In this document: positions 1 through 14,222 of the stretch, one piece after another
How the letters are laid out: every line of letters begins with the position of its first letter
Numbering within the stretch: position 1 is the stretch's first letter
Notes under the pieces: generated by a model
What the model was told of the DNA's origin: nothing
Database searches by the model: none
The model's input: only the letters and a program-made list of their open reading frames with translations
DNA from: a virus
DNA: 22,996 bases
Virus record (IMG/VR): IMGVR_UViG_3300034101_002100
Location: 1-22,996 of that record
Direction: 5' to 3' (one strand)
Made by a program: the position numbers and the translations under genes

Positions 1-285
1 ACGCGGTTACATTTCCACTAGTAGTTACTCCATTGTTTAATACAACAATTCCAGTCCCATCAGGATCAATGACAATGTTGGCGTTGGATACTGTGCCAAA
101 TATAGTCTGATCGGAAACATCGAGATTCCCAAGACTAAAACTAGCTGGATGGCCTCCTTGCGTGACGCCGTCATGAATATTCAAGGTCCAGTTAGTTGTA
201 TTAACTGTAAGCTCACCCTCTGGCCCTGTATAGGTAGAACTTACATTAGCGTTACCACGCTTCCATTGGACTGTTTTGCTCATTT
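1..285 (-). CDS. Tail-fibre / tropism-determinant-like protein, N-terminal part (truncated by window edge)
   Basis: The reading frame stays open from an ATG at 285 through 95 codons to the window edge, so the C-terminal part lies outside. The product begins MSKTVQWKRGNANVSSTYTG and continues with a GELTVNTTNWTLNIHDG segment. That pattern (a short beta-strand, a GNT/GNA turn, then 'E..V.T....L..HDG') is typical of the N-terminal domain of phage tail-fibre and major-tropism-determinant-like proteins, which anchors the fibre and is followed by a variable receptor-binding region. A Shine-Dalgarno-like GGAAG lies 7 nt upstream of the ATG. The gene follows the other tail genes in the same direction, 46 nt after the stop of the 247-aa gene. 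The domain assignment rests on recognised motif style, not a search. Whether this is a long fibre or a short adhesin cannot be told from the visible part. Confidence 0.7.
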
Positions 286-6457: not shown

Positions 6458-6961
6458 TTACCACACCTTAGAATAATTAACTACTTCACTCTGACGACTA
6501 ATGTCTTTAACAAAATAAACGCACATAGGTTTATCTGTTCCAGTTTCCAAAGGCACAGCCAACATCTGCCCAGGTTTGAGTTTAGGGAAGTACCATTTAA
6601 CATCTTGATATATGTCAATTACTTCTACAGGATAGAACTCAGGCCGAAAGCTAGCCATAGGATTAAAAGCAAATGCACTAAAACCTCGATCATTGATGCT
6701 AGTAAGCGGAACAACTTCTAAATCTCCTAAGTCGGGTTCACCTATAAGTAATTGCCAGTCTATGGGCATTTTAACTACGTTGTTACCTATTTTAAGAACT
6801 AGTGCAGGACTGTTAAAGCTTTCTAAAAAAATTAAAGGAATAAAAAAGTAATCAGGTTCCTTAGGATCTGAATTGTCTAATACGCAGAATCTTATGTCGT
6901 CAACTTCTTCAGGTATCTCGTTTAATTCGTAACTGGTGTTATCTAATGTTAATAATCTCAT
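6458..6961 (-). CDS. Conserved hypothetical protein of T4-like marine phages
   Basis: This 167-aa, acidic, beta-rich protein starts MRLLTLDNTSYELNEIPEEV. Notable segments are an 'IDWQLLIGEPDLGDLEVVPL' stretch (about residues 67-86), 'NDRGFSAFAFNPMASFRPEF' (about 90-109) and a C-terminal 'CVYFVKDISRQSEVV'. The style and neighbours suggest a conserved phage core gene, but I cannot name a function. It has no Shine-Dalgarno. The start codon sits 6 nt after a -10 hexamer (see the promoter at 6968-6996), so its mRNA may be leaderless. It is the first gene of the run 6961-3015, directly after the UvsW gene. Confidence 0.65.
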   Translation of the reverse strand: MRLLTLDNTSYELNEIPEEVDDIRFCVLDNSDPKEPDYFFIPLIFLESFNSPALVLKIGNNVVKMPIDWQLLIGEPDLGDLEVVPLTSINDRGFSAFAFNPMASFRPEFYPVEVIDIYQDVKWYFPKLKPGQMLAVPLETGTDKPMCVYFVKDISRQSEVVNYSKVW

Positions 6962-6967
6962 ATTGTT

Positions 6968-6996
6968 ATAATAATATCTTTGTCAGTGTAAGTCAA
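6968..6996 (-). promoter_or_regulatory. Sigma70-type promoter, TTGACT - 17 nt - TATTAT
   Basis: On the minus strand TTGACT (6996-6991) and TATTAT (6973-6968) are separated by exactly 17 nt, the ideal spacing. Only 6 nt separate the -10 from the ATG at 6961, so the predicted +1 is the A of the start codon. The -35 overlaps the end of the UvsW gene (stop at 6993). It would start the 6961-3015 gene run. Confidence 0.65.
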
Positions 6997-8438
6997 CTCT
7001 GCCATTCGGTTTTTTCTATACTAAATGGGTAGTTTGCTTCTTTATAAAATTGTTTACGTTTAGTTAAGTGTCGTTTGGCGAATTTACAAGTTGATGTTAT
7101 GTCCCAGATTTGGACGAAGTCTTTGTCTTCAGCTTTTCTAATACCTCGCCCAATTGATTGTATAACCCTTGTAAAGCTTTTTCCGGACTCCACAAGAACC
7201 AAATTAAAAATCCTAGGGATATTAATACCCACAGCGGCCACACCGTAAGTCGCCACAGCAACCTTGTCATCAGTAATCGCAAATTCGTCGTACTCATCTT
7301 TTCTTGCCTTTGATTTAGTAGCTCCCGATACAAAAACTGCATTTTTTATTTTACTGGTTAATTTCTTACCCGGATCTACACGGTCAACCAGTACTAGGGT
7401 ATTTCCCGTTTCAGAAATCTTGTTAATAAGATTAGCAATATAGTCTAATCGATCGTCTGTCTCTAACAAATATCTTAGTTCTTGTTGATAATCTTTATAT
7501 TCGACATAGTCGACCATTTGTATTACATTCACGTGACAGTTACTTAGATGTCCTTGTTCTTGTAATTCGCTGGCACTAAGTTGCCCTATTACTGGACCAA
7601 TGCAACAGTTCAATGCTTGATATGCATAATCTTCTTTGGGAACTGTGCCGGTTAATCCCCAGCGAATAGGCACACGAGCAAAGATGGTGGTCAACATAGA
7701 CTTCAATGCATCTGCTTTGGCACTGTGAGCTTCGTCTACCATAACACAAACAACATTCTCGATAAAGTCGTGTATAGTCACATCTGCTTCATAGTTCTTT
7801 GTATTCTTCACTAAAGCATTCAAACTTTGCCATGTGCAGATTGTGTGTTGTTTAGTATATTCTTTGCGATCTCCAAACAATACACCAACGTCTAATCCCA
7901 TGGTTTTGTAGTCTGTTTCTGTTTGTGTAACAAGACTTTTAGAAGGAACAATAACAATGCTTCGACCCAAATGTTGCACACTTGCAGACAGTGCCGCGGT
8001 CATAATAGTTTTACCAGCGCCTGTGGCCACTTCCTGAATACACTGCGGATTCTTTAAAAAGCGATTGATAATTTCAACTTGATAATCGCGCAGTATAATA
8101 GGTTCATTGTTGGGCCATTGTTTGTGAGAGAAACTATCTTCGACCACTTGCCCGAGTTCTAATGTAGTACTGTATTCTCGGACATCATCTACATCAATAT
8201 CGTAACCCCGTTCTTCTAAGTAAGGAAGAATATCAGGCAATAAATTAATGTAGGTTGTCCCGCCCAAATTAAAATAAGGCACTCTACCGTCCCAACGCCC
8301 TAATCGGACCGCAGGCAAATACTTTGCTCCGGGTATTTCGTATTTGAACTTTTCCACTAATCGTTTTCGATCAGCGAGTTCAAGCCCTTCGATCTTTACA
8401 TTAACTTCGTCTCGAATAATTAATTTTGCTTGATTCAT
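6993..8438 (-). CDS. uvsW: UvsW-like SF2 helicase
   Basis: This 481-aa protein is an ATP-dependent superfamily-2 helicase of the T4 UvsW type. That enzyme unwinds branched DNA and R-loops, acts in recombination-dependent replication and repair, and shuts off origin-dependent initiation. The N-terminal ~100 residues carry the small UvsW DNA-binding domain (KYEIPGAKYLPAVRLGRWDG, then NLGGTTYINLLPDIL). Motifs follow in order: Q-like 'LRDYQ' (116-120), Walker A ATGAGKT (138-144), DEAH box VDEAHSA (234-240), motif III GLTGT (261-265) and motif VI QSIGRGIRK (427-435). Length is close to T4 UvsW (503 aa). The start overlaps the upstream HARP-like gene by ATGA (8435-8438). It is the clearest T4-like marker in the window. 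Confidence 0.95.
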   Translation of the reverse strand: MNQAKLIIRDEVNVKIEGLELADRKRLVEKFKYEIPGAKYLPAVRLGRWDGRVPYFNLGGTTYINLLPDILPYLEERGYDIDVDDVREYSTTLELGQVVEDSFSHKQWPNNEPIILRDYQVEIINRFLKNPQCIQEVATGAGKTIMTAALSASVQHLGRSIVIVPSKSLVTQTETDYKTMGLDVGVLFGDRKEYTKQHTICTWQSLNALVKNTKNYEADVTIHDFIENVVCVMVDEAHSAKADALKSMLTTIFARVPIRWGLTGTVPKEDYAYQALNCCIGPVIGQLSASELQEQGHLSNCHVNVIQMVDYVEYKDYQQELRYLLETDDRLDYIANLINKISETGNTLVLVDRVDPGKKLTSKIKNAVFVSGATKSKARKDEYDEFAITDDKVAVATYGVAAVGINIPRIFNLVLVESGKSFTRVIQSIGRGIRKAEDKDFVQIWDITSTCKFAKRHLTKRKQFYKEANYPFSIEKTEWQS

Positions 8439-9478
8439 TCTAGAATTATAATTTTTTCAGCATTAGAAACCCAACTTTGTTTTTTACTACCTATCATTAG
8501 GCTGGTGGTAGTTACTAGTAACTTGGGACATACTTCGGGTCCCATTCCTCGATTCAAATAGATAATGTCTTCAGTATTGGATTTTGGTAACCCAGTTTCG
8601 TAAACATGAATGGGCAATCTATTTACCTTTCGTGCATATTCTAAAACTTGCTCCATAGAAATTTTTTCTTTGTTGCAAGTAGTTTTTCGATTTATCAAAA
8701 ATCTACGATCATGTCCGTAATCTAATTTGTCGATCTGCTCCATTAAAGTTTCATCTACATCAAAGCCCAGCACTGCACTGACATCAATTAATTTTAATAG
8801 GTTGTTCATGGTAACGCCGCCGATATTCTCTAAGTAATCTAACAAACTAGATTCAGCATTTTCCAAGATCAATTGATTGTCTACTAACTTAAGGCAAATT
8901 TCATAACCACTGTTTTCCACAGATAACATCTTTTCGTACAGTGCTGTAACAGATTCGTGAACGGAAAAATCATTTGAAGGACAAATAGTCATGATCCAAT
9001 TTAAGTTGTATTCAGTCATGCCCAATATCCACATCTTTTTGTCATAATCGAATTTAACAGATCCTTCGCCTTGTCTTGCCTGTTTTTTCAACAAGTCGAT
9101 TAACTTAGTATCATATGGAAATTTAACCACAAATTGATTATCGTCGATGTATACAGATTTCGATCTATCAACAACTCGTATACCTAATCTGAATGATTCA
9201 AGTTTTTCAGGGACAATGACCGGAGTGCTTAAACCTGCTAATTGCCTTCTGTACTTGTCTACAAGTTTTATTGCCAATGCACTTTGTTTATCTGTATAAG
9301 GATTATTTAACTCGCTGGTTTGCGAGGACAAACTATCAATAATAGATACATCATATCTTGCCAAGTTTATAGGAACTGGGACATGGTTAAATATTCCGAA
9401 AATTTTACCGTCGATGCTGCGCCGGCCACCGATAAACTCTATGTAATCTTCAACATAATTAAAAGTGGGCTGCTTCAT
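8435..9478 (-). CDS. HARP-like protein coupled to UvsW
   Basis: This is a 347-aa protein of uncertain function. Residues about 57-82 contain 'NPYTDKQSALAIKLVDKYRRQ', a segment type seen in phage replication and helicase proteins. Residues about 108-162 (VYIDDNQFVVKFPYDTKLID, then KFDYDKKMWILGMTEYNLNW) follow the pattern of the HARP domain: 'F.V.FPY...LI...', then 'YD...K.W.....Y..L'. HARP domains in SMARCAL1-type annealing helicases bind branched DNA next to an SF2 motor. Here the motor could be the adjacent UvsW, whose gene overlaps this stop by ATGA. No ATPase motif is present. The ATG at 9478 lies 6 nt after a perfect -10 hexamer with no Shine-Dalgarno. The HARP assignment is inference from a short pattern. 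Confidence 0.6.
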   Translation of the reverse strand: MKQPTFNYVEDYIEFIGGRRSIDGKIFGIFNHVPVPINLARYDVSIIDSLSSQTSELNNPYTDKQSALAIKLVDKYRRQLAGLSTPVIVPEKLESFRLGIRVVDRSKSVYIDDNQFVVKFPYDTKLIDLLKKQARQGEGSVKFDYDKKMWILGMTEYNLNWIMTICPSNDFSVHESVTALYEKMLSVENSGYEICLKLVDNQLILENAESSLLDYLENIGGVTMNNLLKLIDVSAVLGFDVDETLMEQIDKLDYGHDRRFLINRKTTCNKEKISMEQVLEYARKVNRLPIHVYETGLPKSNTEDIIYLNRGMGPEVCPKLLVTTTSLMIGSKKQSWVSNAEKIIILE

Positions 9479-9497
9479 ATTGCTATTATAGCAATAT
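9477..9497. promoter_or_regulatory. 9-bp-arm palindrome across -10 box and start codon
   Basis: Arms ATATTGCTA (9477-9485) and TAGCAATAT (9489-9497) are perfect inverted repeats with a 3-nt centre. The palindrome spans the TATAAT box and the first two bases of the ATG at 9478. It could be an operator for a dimeric repressor, or an RNA hairpin if transcription begins further upstream. Confidence 0.45.
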
Positions 9498-9513
9498 TTA
9501 ATTCACAAATCAA
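9485..9513 (-). promoter_or_regulatory. Sigma70-type promoter, TTGATT - 17 nt - TATAAT
   Basis: On the minus strand TTGATT (9513-9508) and a consensus TATAAT (9490-9485) are separated by 17 nt. A TG one base upstream of the hexamer (TTGCTATAAT) makes an extended -10. The ATG at 9478 follows after exactly 6 nt, so the predicted +1 is the start codon. It would drive the HARP-like protein and UvsW separately from heme oxygenase. Confidence 0.65.
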
Positions 9514-9525
9514 ATGTATTGATAG

Positions 9526-10053
9526 TCAGACATCGTATTCTTGCAGAATTCTAATAGCCCAATCAAACGCTAGATTAGCTTCATCTGCCATGCTGTCGTC
9601 CAGCTTTGATCTAATTGTGCTAATCAATTGATCCTTGTTTTCAAACTCAAATGCAATATGACTGCCAGGAATTAATCGTTTAATCATTTGGCCACCGTAG
9701 AGATCCCCCATATGCCAGACATATAAGTGAGCCATTATTTTGGCCGGATCTTTGTTAATGCTTAACAAATAATTGTGATAATCAACAGCAGCATTCTTAA
9801 AGGAATATTGTTTTTTATCAGCGTTCATAATATGATAGTCGTGAAATAACTTAAACGATCTACTTATGTCCGGCAAGTCTCTTAATAAGCCATTCATACC
9901 CGCAGCACCTTCTATGGTTTTGTAGAATAACATCTTCTGATAGGTGTAATCTATCCAATGATCCATGGGCAATGTTCCTGCAAATATAGCTCGCATGAAT
10001 TGTGTGGATTCGGCTTGTTTATGTTTTTCTGCGGTAAGTTCTTTGAGACTCAT
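9526..10053 (-). CDS. ho: Short heme oxygenase
   Basis: Heme oxygenase opens heme to biliverdin, Fe(II) and CO using reduced ferredoxin or a similar donor. This 175-aa version starts MSLKELTAEKHKQAESTQFM. His11 is the expected proximal heme ligand in the 'T.EKH...E' motif. The distal-helix glycine motif is present as GDLYGGQMI (116-124). It is shorter than cyanobacterial HO (about 235-240 aa) and ends soon after the distal helix region. The ATG at 10053 is preferred over a longer frame starting at 10107, because the extra residues would be translated from the intrinsic terminator. No bilin reductase gene (pcyA/pebS type) is in the window, so iron release, biliverdin signalling or chromophore supply are all possible. 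It sits alone between a terminator and the UvsW promoter. Confidence 0.9.
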   Translation of the reverse strand: MSLKELTAEKHKQAESTQFMRAIFAGTLPMDHWIDYTYQKMLFYKTIEGAAGMNGLLRDLPDISRSFKLFHDYHIMNADKKQYSFKNAAVDYHNYLLSINKDPAKIMAHLYVWHMGDLYGGQMIKRLIPGSHIAFEFENKDQLISTIRSKLDDSMADEANLAFDWAIRILQEYDV

Positions 10054-10084: not shown

Positions 10085-10113
10085 AAAAAAAAGCCCTGCT
10101 TACGCAAGGCTTT
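10085..10113 (-). terminator. Rho-independent terminator with GNRA loop
   Basis: Minus-strand RNA would form a 10-bp stem (AAAGCCTTGC paired with GCAGGGCTTT, one G-U) closed by a GUAA tetraloop (10113-10090). It is followed directly by a further U5 tract (10089-10085). There is no U-tract on the other strand, so it acts only leftward. It ends the transcript covering the SPFH and 139-aa genes and insulates heme oxygenase. Confidence 0.9.
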
Positions 10114-10580: not shown

Positions 10581-11375
10581 TTATTTGGGCATCATCAAAG
10601 CATTGAAGTTAGCAGGAACTACGATAGTTTGAACTTTACCGTTCTTGATACCTTCGGAAATATTCAGAGCGGCCTGGGCATTCATAAACGCAATGCTACT
10701 GGCACTGTTATTAGCCAGTGCTGCCATTCGGCGTGCTTCTGCTTCAGCAGTTTTAACTTCCACTTCCTTTTGCTTGAGTTCGTTCTTACTACGAACCAAA
10801 TCGTTGGCAGACGCCACAACACTGTCGGCAGGCACAACATTACGAATCAGCACCTGACTGATACTAATACTACCGTCCAGTTTTTCTTCGGCAAGATTGC
10901 GAATAATTTCTTCTTTGATGAAGTTTTCCATTTCAGTACGATTGTCTGCCATATCCAACGCTTCGTACTTACGTGCGGCTTTATAGATAGCGTTACGGGC
11001 ATTTTGCACAATGTAGTTATACATCAAGTAAACATCGCCTTTGAACTCTGCATGGAAAGCACGATTCTTTTGGCTGTATAGTTCAGCCACTTGTTGACTG
11101 TTAATATTATAGACCACTACTGCATCAAAGTCTTTCATGGTACTATTGTCTTTGGCCACAGGAGTCATGTCGTTGAGTGCGACATTAACATCCTTGACTG
11201 GGAATGTAAGAACATCGCCAATCATAACCTGATTAAAAGAACCGGGCAGCAGTTCACCAGGTTGAACCTGTTTATCAAAACCAATACGAACACCGACCTC
11301 GCCGGTCTCAATACGAGTACAACCAGTGGCAAGAACTGCGGCGGCAATAAGACTCAAAGTAGCAAAACGTTTCAT
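10581..11375 (-). CDS. SPFH/prohibitin-like lipoprotein
   Basis: This 264-aa protein has an N-terminal export signal (MKRFATLSLIAAAVLATGC) with a lipobox-like LATGC, making Cys19 the likely lipidated residue. An SPFH/Band-7 domain follows (GEVGVRIGFDKQVQPGELLPG through VLIRNVVPADSVV, about residues 25-185). Next is an Ala/Glu/Lys-rich coiled coil (about 190-222, SKNELKQKEVEVKTAEAEAR) and a hydrophobic C-terminus. SPFH proteins form ring or scaffold assemblies at membranes and regulate membrane proteases such as FtsH or organise membrane domains. A phage copy might protect phage proteins, alter the host envelope or affect lysis timing. A clean Shine-Dalgarno (GGAG, 7 nt before ATG) lies inside the preceding 31-aa gene, whose stop overlaps the start (TAATG). 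Confidence 0.85.
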   Translation of the reverse strand: MKRFATLSLIAAAVLATGCTRIETGEVGVRIGFDKQVQPGELLPGSFNQVMIGDVLTFPVKDVNVALNDMTPVAKDNSTMKDFDAVVVYNINSQQVAELYSQKNRAFHAEFKGDVYLMYNYIVQNARNAIYKAARKYEALDMADNRTEMENFIKEEIIRNLAEEKLDGSISISQVLIRNVVPADSVVASANDLVRSKNELKQKEVEVKTAEAEARRMAALANNSASSIAFMNAQAALNISEGIKNGKVQTIVVPANFNALMMPK

Positions 11376-12347: not shown

Positions 12348-13376
12348 TTATGCTGCCTTCATGCAAGTAGTTGCTGCCATAGCCTTCCAACGAAGCGGAA
12401 AGCTCTTACGCAGATCCGCAATCTTCAGCGCCATACGCAGGCTCATTTCACGAAGCTTGCTCTTGTTAGAGTCCATGAACTCGAGAATCTCGTCACGGCC
12501 GATGTCGCCGAAATCGTAGTCTTGAAACAATGCGCCGTCAGTGGCAATCTGCTTGATACGCAGGAACTTGTCGCGCATGGTATCCAAGGTCAGATCCAAG
12601 TAGTGGCAGCGACTTTGCAGTGCATCCAAGTGATCCCGCAGCTTCTGCGACTTCATAGTGTCAAACTTCAAGTTGGTGATAAAAATCACACTTCCGTTGA
12701 AGTTGAATTGATCTGGCACACCTTCACGACGCAACATGTTGCTGTCAGCAAGCCAAGAAATTTTACGCTTCTTGCCACTGTCCAGCGCACCCTTGAGCAA
12801 GTTCAGTGCAACATCATCCAACAGAATGCTGTCGCAGTCATCAAACACAAGAACGCAATTGGGATCGCTGTACTTGTACAGAGTGCAATACAGACCCAAT
12901 GCAGTGGCGCTACCTTTAACAACTTCTGCACGAAGTTTCTTGCCAGCAATCTGGTCAAACAGGCAAGCTTTCTCCACAATAGTCTCAACACCGTAGCTCT
13001 TACCAACGCCTGGAGGGCCACTGACAATCATTGCACGAATGTCGCCATTGGTAGCAGCCTTGGTCATCTCGTCGAGGATATCAAAACGCTCACGGATACG
13101 AGCAATCACTTCTTCGTCAGTCTCAACGCTGACGGCTTCGCGCACTTCCATATCGTGCTGAACCATTTCGTTGCCAGTGACAAATTCGTAGGCCGCAACA
13201 CCGTCAACTTTGATACGGATAGTGTCGGGCATGTCAGGAAAATTGCCGCCGTTGCGAACAGTGACGTGCCCACCGCTGGCAGTTTTCTTGTACTGCTCAA
13301 CAAGCTCAAAAGTCATGCCGTTAACGGGCTTGTTACGATAAGTGCCTTTGCGGATAAGAACGGTTGCTTTGGACAT
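12348..13376 (-). CDS. AAA+ ATPase
   Basis: This 342-aa protein has an N-terminal non-catalytic domain (about 1-105) and an AAA+ core. Walker A is GPPGVGKS (120-127), Walker B is VLVFDDCDS (175-183), and sensor 1 is IFITN (231-235). A helical lid follows (DALQSRCHYLDLTLDTMRDK onward). AAA+ proteins with this layout act as remodelling machines or protein-complex loaders. The partner here could be the 222-aa protein encoded just upstream, because both genes carry nearly the same promoter and leader. Translation starts at ATG 13376, 5 nt after a strong GGAG. The C-terminus ends with a basic helical segment (LRKSFPLRWKAMAATTC). Substrate and process are not identifiable from sequence. Confidence 0.9.
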   Translation of the reverse strand: MSKATVLIRKGTYRNKPVNGMTFELVEQYKKTASGGHVTVRNGGNFPDMPDTIRIKVDGVAAYEFVTGNEMVQHDMEVREAVSVETDEEVIARIRERFDILDEMTKAATNGDIRAMIVSGPPGVGKSYGVETIVEKACLFDQIAGKKLRAEVVKGSATALGLYCTLYKYSDPNCVLVFDDCDSILLDDVALNLLKGALDSGKKRKISWLADSNMLRREGVPDQFNFNGSVIFITNLKFDTMKSQKLRDHLDALQSRCHYLDLTLDTMRDKFLRIKQIATDGALFQDYDFGDIGRDEILEFMDSNKSKLREMSLRMALKIADLRKSFPLRWKAMAATTCMKAA

Positions 13377-13405: not shown

Positions 13406-13434
13406 ATTATAGCAAATTGCCCATTTTCGAGCAA
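13406..13434 (-). promoter_or_regulatory. Sigma70-type promoter of the AAA+ gene, TTGCTC - 17 nt - TATAAT
   Basis: TTGCTC (13434-13429) and TATAAT (13411-13406) have ideal 17-nt spacing and an extended -10 (TTTGCTATAAT). The following leader (ATAATGG, ATAGTAA, then GGAG) nearly repeats that at 14199-14170. Confidence 0.8.
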
Positions 13435-13493: not shown

Positions 13494-14162
13494 TTAAGCA
13501 AATTTGACGAAATTCAGCGTAGTAACCTGAGCACCGTTATGATATTTGCTAGTTTCGGTGCGTTTAATTTTGCCCGAATAACGAGCGCTACGAGTGCAAT
13601 CTTCTTTGGCAGTCAGATACGAAACCAAATTTCCGTTGTCGTCTTTAGCATTAACTGACCAGCAATTGAATTGCTGAAGAAAACGACTGTTCATGACAGT
13701 CAAATTGACTGTAATTTTATCACCAACGCGGCCCAAATATTGACTAACTTGGGCCAGCTCTGCCACTTCTTGCTCGCGAGCTTGACGCTGAACAAGTTGA
13801 GCCGTCATGCTAGGCAGAAATGCCATAAGCCCAGCGTCACTCATGGTGGACTCTGTCTGCGTGAGCAGGTTAGTCAGTGTGTTCTGAAAGTCCGGAACCA
13901 TGAGACCTTTAAGGATACGCATCATACGATCCTGACTCAGAGTCTCCATGGCAGCAAGTGCGTCGGTGCGATCCTGCTCAGTGACTTCAAGGTTGCCTTC
14001 GCGCATCAATTGCTTATTAGGAACAACTGTGACCAGTGAATCCTTTTCTTTGTCAAAATACGAACTGTCTTTATAGACATTAGACTGATTCTTGCGATAG
14101 GCCGCAAAAGCCAGAGCGGCAAGCTCAACAGTAGAAATTTTCACTGGGGTGTATCGTGCCAT
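13494..14162 (-). CDS. Hypothetical protein, probable partner of the AAA+ ATPase
   Basis: This 222-aa soluble protein starts MARYTPVKISTVELAALAFA. Residues about 5-55 hold a helix and a 'PNKQLMREG' turn. The middle (60-145) is helical with many Gln, Thr and Met. The C-terminal third is beta-rich (KITVNLTVMNSRFLQQFNCW, then GNLVSYLTAKEDC, then a basic GKIKRTETSKYHNG). The last part could be an OB-like or other small beta-barrel domain. No known motif is found. It has an excellent promoter and Shine-Dalgarno (AAGGAG, 7 nt spacing), nearly duplicated in front of the AAA+ gene, which suggests equal and high expression of the two. A hairpin separates them. Function unknown. Confidence 0.75.
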   Translation of the reverse strand: MARYTPVKISTVELAALAFAAYRKNQSNVYKDSSYFDKEKDSLVTVVPNKQLMREGNLEVTEQDRTDALAAMETLSQDRMMRILKGLMVPDFQNTLTNLLTQTESTMSDAGLMAFLPSMTAQLVQRQAREQEVAELAQVSQYLGRVGDKITVNLTVMNSRFLQQFNCWSVNAKDDNGNLVSYLTAKEDCTRSARYSGKIKRTETSKYHNGAQVTTLNFVKFA

Positions 14163-14193: not shown

Positions 14194-14222
14194 ATTATAG
14201 CAAAATTGGGAATATTGGTCAA
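14194..14222 (-). promoter_or_regulatory. Sigma70-type promoter of the 222-aa gene, TTGACC - 17 nt - TATAAT
   Basis: TTGACC (14222-14217), 17-nt spacer and TATAAT (14199-14194), with an extended -10 (TTTTGCTATAAT). It is close to the bacterial consensus and shares its -10 region and leader with the AAA+ promoter. It lies directly after the stop of the 50-aa membrane gene. Confidence 0.85.

Follow-up and report, generated by a model that had tools for sequence, protein, structure and literature searches.

How is a gene expressed when a promoter-like sequence ends only 6 nt before its start codon and no ribosome-binding site precedes it? This question is raised by a 167-aa gene in the window, the whole stretch of DNA analyzed here, which is a 22,996-bp record from a viral contig collection with nearly all of its genes on the minus strand. 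The ATG of the gene lies about 30 nt beyond the end of a uvsW-like helicase gene (6993-8438). The best isolate matches of the uvsW-like protein (46 to 52% identity) come from the jumbo phages PA5oct, Atu_ph07, 121Q, and the Sinorhizobium phage Phosso, and close relatives of the 167-aa gene are found in many IMG/VR contigs, including the large contigs G003 (338 kb), G022 (354 kb), and G021 (374 kb). Elsewhere in the window, positions 10581-11375 encode a Band_7/SPFH-domain protein that starts with a lipoprotein-like signal sequence.

An earlier note had described TTGACT-17-TATTAT followed by 6 nt and the ATG at the 167-aa gene, without naming the strand. The promoter is on the minus strand, where positions 7010-6950 read ...GGCAGAG TTGACT TACACTGACAAAGATAT TATTAT AACAAT ATG AGATTATTA, and direct reading bears out the described arrangement. 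The absence of a Shine-Dalgarno sequence likewise stands, there being no GGAG/AGGA/GAGG-like motif upstream. The same note had claimed that the 6-nt gap recurs at 9478, the start of a 347-aa gene, and we read TTGATT-17-TATAAT-6-ATG there, with CAATATG ending both sites and again no Shine-Dalgarno sequence in the window at the 347-aa start. Both sites thus have a -10 about 12 to 7 nt before an AUG start and a -35 at a spacing of 17. The window also carries two promoters of ordinary, leadered design, upstream of the genes at 13494-14162 and 12348-13376, so that both classes are represented in it (Table 1).

Table 1. Positions in the window of the promoter elements, genes, and inverted repeat discussed in the text
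Positions	Strand	Feature
6458-6961	-	167-aa gene, phrog_11279, function unknown; kept near uvsW in jumbo phages
6959-6961	-	Start codon ATG of the 167-aa gene; leaderless transcription is predicted to begin (+1) at its A
6962-6967	-	AACAAT, the 6-nt gap from -10 to ATG, without Shine-Dalgarno sequence
6968-6973	-	-10 TATTAT of the 167-aa gene, spacer of 17 nt from the -35
6991-6996	-	-35 TTGACT of the 167-aa gene; the TGA within it also terminates the uvsW-like reading frame
8435-9478	-	347-aa gene, function unknown; best-conserved predicted leaderless promoter of any family
9476-9478	-	Start codon ATG of the 347-aa gene; A 9478 is the predicted +1, and AGCAAT fills the gap (9484-9479)
9477-9497		21-bp inverted repeat ATATTGC-TATAATA-GCAATAT around the 347-aa -10, extending into the ATG; possible operator
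9485-9490	-	-10 TATAAT of the 347-aa gene, TGC just before it, spacer of 17
9508-9513	-	-35 TTGATT of the 347-aa gene
13406-13434	-	Leadered comparator TTGCTC-17-TATAAT, AATGGA-ATA...ACAGGAG, 29 nt to the ATG of gene 12348-13376
14194-14222	-	Leadered comparator TTGACC-17-TATAAT, AATGGC-ATA...CAAGGAG, 31 nt to the ATG of gene 13494-14162

A -10-like hexamer might fall near an ATG by chance in AT-rich upstream DNA, and the window has a GC content of 39%. We counted promoters exactly 6 nt before the start codons of ORFs spanning 60 aa or more, allowing at most one mismatch in total in TTGAC plus TATAAT, and, for comparison, repeated the count on the upstream regions after each of 300 dinucleotide shuffles. 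The window, in which the upstream regions of 32 ORF starts were tested, gave 2 such promoters (shuffle mean, 0.00), G003 gave 6 (0.03), G022 gave 9 (0.02), and G021 gave 7 (0.02), and none of these counts was reached in any of the 300 shuffles. Overall, the window has about as many promoter-like sites as its shuffles do (66, compared with 57.6 by chance; standard deviation, 6.9), with no excess, and the signal is therefore carried by position and not by the motif alone. Chance is extremely improbable as an explanation and is contradicted for the class, since 0.00 to 0.03 sites are expected where 2 to 9 were found and since orthologues keep the placement.

The genome-wide enrichment at this distance that the earlier note had looked to was found: a sharp peak, one position wide, stood at 6 nt in G003, G021, G022, and pooled fragments. 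When exact TTGAC-16..18-TATAAT promoters were plotted with an open frame of 40 codons as the only gene criterion, the -10-to-ATG distance was bimodal, with 7, 9, and 3 promoters at a gap of 6, almost none at 8 to 16, and a second mode at 27 to 32. The exact TTGAC-TATAAT promoters lay on the main gene-bearing strand in 27 of 29, 44 of 46, and 9 of 11 cases. Under looser criteria 50 gap-6 sites were observed, and roughly 8 of these (about 15%) are expected as background. At ORFs of at least 60 aa, the codon at gap 6 was ATG in 40 cases, TTG in 1, and GTG in none; these ORFs were called mechanically, with some error in start assignment outside the 167-aa and 347-aa families. Other codons (GTG, TTG, CTG, and the unrelated TAC and AAG) gave no ATG-like peak at gap 6 across the genomes. 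Strong promoters were also seen at gap-6 ATGs whose frame closes after 3 to 12 codons, in L159 (minus strand, 438 and 17123), L128 (13538), and L129 (13826); such sites may represent leaderless mini-ORFs, or else leaders with an incidental 5' AUG.

After removal of duplicates, 61 promoters fell into the leaderless class (gap of 5 to 7, exactly 6 in 42) and 117 into the leadered class, which has its mode at 27 to 32 nt and a Shine-Dalgarno sequence in 73 of 117 cases. The leadered promoters provide an indication of where transcription would begin. At the seventh nucleotide after their -10, the presumed +1, 50% have A; T stands at +2 in 62% and a pyrimidine at -1 in 73%, the whole often reading C-ATA-GCAA. 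This A/T preference falls at the very coordinate occupied by the ATG in the leaderless class, although no ATG is needed there, and the start site is thereby placed independently. A leader of about 1 to 3 nt, with transcription starting slightly upstream of the ATG, would account for the minority of promoters at gaps of 5, 7, 8, and 9, and σ70 start sites may slide by one or two nucleotides; the peak at exactly 6 and the coincident preference in the leadered class nevertheless make a short leader quite improbable. The first 40 nt of the ORFs in the leaderless class are A-rich and fold weakly (-2.2 kcal/mol, compared with -6.2 within genes), properties that suit leaderless translation. The T4 late promoter, TATAAATA, which is read with gp55 and has no -35, was considered as another source of the pattern and rejected: the window site has a -35 and TATTAT instead, and TATAAATA is rare in G003, G021, and G022 (12 to 14 per genome) and has no strong positional peak.

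The 347-aa gene provides the most extensive test of conservation. Its protein has no Pfam, PHROG, or phage-isolate match, and a search of GTDB genomes for a host returned no relative. We followed the family into 80 contigs from alignment A1. Among 48 distinct upstream sequences the gap was 6 in 27 and, measured to a second ATG in the same frame, in 3 more; it was 5 in 8 and 7 in 3, and the loci that conserve the promoter encode proteins down to about 31% identical. With near-duplicates collapsed, the gap was 6 in 26 of 36 upstream sequences; ten loci failed this stricter search. The distance from the initiating Met to the VEDY core of the protein varies from 5 to 11 residues and the gap is still 6 in 23 of 30 cases: the start codon tracks the promoter and not the protein. 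At many of these loci a terminator-like sequence lies just upstream, its U-tract flowing directly into the -35 (GGCAGGGCTTTTTTTTGAC). In the window, a terminator-like hairpin at 10090-10113, upstream of a heme-oxygenase gene (9526-10053), has a U-tract that continues into TTGACTT; since the same type of terminator directly precedes the 347-aa promoter in many relatives, the heme-oxygenase gene may be an insertion.

The inverted repeat over the -10 of the 347-aa gene raises the question of whether the conserved element is mainly an operator, with leaderlessness a by-product of gene packing. Inverted repeats with arms of at least 6 bp around the -10 were found in 5 of 61 leaderless promoters, a count that overstates the independent cases because some of the sequences are closely related, compared with 0.3 in shuffles and 0 of 117 leadered promoters. 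The arms covary in relatives of the 347-aa gene (ATACTGC/GCAGTAT and ATACTGT/ACAGTAT). The pattern ATAYTGY-N7..9-RCARTAT lies on the -10 and ATG of the 347-aa gene, centered on the leaderless -10 at 9477-9497 of the window and in L129, L227, L239, and L244 to L246, and it recurs on the start of a uvdE-like gene in G003 and G023. A putative operator is the simplest reading of this dyad. Most leaderless promoters lack it, however, and within the 347-aa family it is confined to one sub-lineage, which makes it very improbable that the conserved element as a whole serves mainly as an operator. One operator common to all leaderless promoters was rejected on the same distribution, the dyad occurring only in the 347-aa sub-lineage and some uvdE-like genes.

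At the 167-aa gene itself, the start at 6961 appears to be real, because the amino terminus MR[LI]LTL(D/E)N is conserved among homologues. L002, L005, and L009 share the leaderless geometry with little or no change, the -10 of L005 being the weaker TACTAT. In L003 the 167-aa protein is 99% identical and the upstream sequence is nonhomologous, yet it reads TTGCAA-17-TATAAT-6-ATG. Other homologues have promoters such as TTGACA...TGTATACT about 18 to 33 nt upstream, or the gene simply abuts uvsW. On these comparisons the leaderless arrangement of the 167-aa gene is young, occurring only in the window and in L002, L005, L009, and L003, which are its near relatives, and the 347-aa gene is for this reason the stronger case. 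In several homologues the apparent start codon is ATT (L010, L015, and L052), ATC (L053, L056, and L057), or CTG (L068), preceded by a good Shine-Dalgarno sequence, GGAG. In the five of these loci that were translated (L010, L015, L052, L053, and L068), there is no in-frame ATG between the upstream stop and the ATT, ATC, or CTG codon, a situation reminiscent of infC-like start-codon control.

For the 167-aa gene alone, it is also conceivable that the promoter is weak or unused and that translation proceeds from the uvsW transcript. The -10 is imperfect, uvsW ends about 30 nt upstream, and most homologues are leadered or abut uvsW, many of them abutting or overlapping it without a promoter. Against such an arrangement, reinitiation would find no Shine-Dalgarno sequence at the gene, L002 and L009 retain the exact geometry, as does L005 with its weaker -10, and other lineages have placed different promoters in the same interval. 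We consider expression from the uvsW transcript unlikely, and leaderless expression of the 167-aa gene likely, mainly from the behavior of the promoter class to which it appears to belong.

Taken together, the enrichment at gap 6, the conservation among orthologues, and the +1/+2 preference of the leadered class support the proposal of the earlier note that the mRNA is leaderless and that the A of the ATG is +1. We regard it as very likely, from the sequences compared, that this σ70-type promoter yields a leaderless mRNA as one of a clade-wide leaderless class that exists beside a leadered, Shine-Dalgarno class. The promoter would most likely be read by the RNA polymerase of the host, carrying its main σ factor; transcription would begin at the A of the start codon or within about 1 nt of it, giving a leaderless mRNA; and ribosomes, chiefly 70S, would bind the 5'-terminal AUG directly. 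The class would be used across the jumbo phage clade alongside the ordinary leadered class, and its predicted members include many replication and repair genes. Families leaderless by this arrangement in more than one genome are those of a 5'-3' exonuclease, a primase, a DnaB-like helicase, a UvdE endonuclease, and a 3'-5' exonuclease; the 5'-3' exonuclease genes of 121Q and PA5oct have no gap-6 promoter. A homologue of ribosomal protein bS21 is encoded by G003, G021, G022, G023, and G024 and also by PA5oct, Atu_ph07, and Phosso, and no match was found in 121Q. The presence of bS21 does not account for the leaderless class, since it is found in PA5oct and Atu_ph07, both of which are without gap-6 promoters. 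A further suggestion, which we hold to be doubtful, is that the replication and repair set is translationally distinct, its leaderless mRNAs being separated from the Shine-Dalgarno genes so as to be favored once infection has modified the ribosomes, as might happen if phage bS21 replaced host bS21, and that in one sub-lineage the dyad spanning the -10 and AUG provides additional control by a repressor or conceals the AUG when transcripts read through from upstream.

The λ cI mRNA transcribed from PRM is a phage message that starts at its AUG, and the leaderless phage messages known are mostly single cases. In contrast to λ cI and similar single genes, the class in these jumbo phages is repeated genome-wide and includes replication genes. 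Leaderless mRNAs in bacteria can be bound at their 5'-terminal AUG by 70S ribosomes (PMC9031893), and leaderless genes in many bacteria have a TANNNT -10-like signal about 12 bp before the start codon (PMC3160421). The placement of that signal, and the kind of sequence argument by which those TA-led genes were recognized, are the same as here; that survey, however, covered cellular genomes, whereas the present genes belong to a clade of phages, have a good -35 and the exact 17/6 geometry, and share their genomes with a distinct leadered class. The giant phage AR9, likewise a jumbo phage, has two mapped promoter classes, but these are read by its own multisubunit polymerases and give leaders of 26 to 491 nt (PMC5312081), whereas the promoters described here are σ70-like and many of the leaders are predicted to be absent. 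The more distant isolated relatives PA5oct, Atu_ph07 (an Agrobacterium phage), and 121Q (an Escherichia phage) also have uvsW-like proteins (46 to 50% identity) and homologues of the 167-aa protein (34 to 47%), but they gave 0 gap-6 promoters in the same test and have leadered promoters only.

A search of open-access papers turned up no account of leaderless genes as a class in these phages. Leaderless genes of this type are already known, and it is their systematic, conserved use in this clade that appears to be undescribed. The exact gap-6 promoter would provide gene finders with a start signal that is missed by models based on the Shine-Dalgarno sequence. If the interpretation is correct, viruses can adopt leaderless expression as a stable strategy across the genome, here in a clade of large uncultivated phages in which some of the leaderless orthologues share only about 31 to 36% protein identity.
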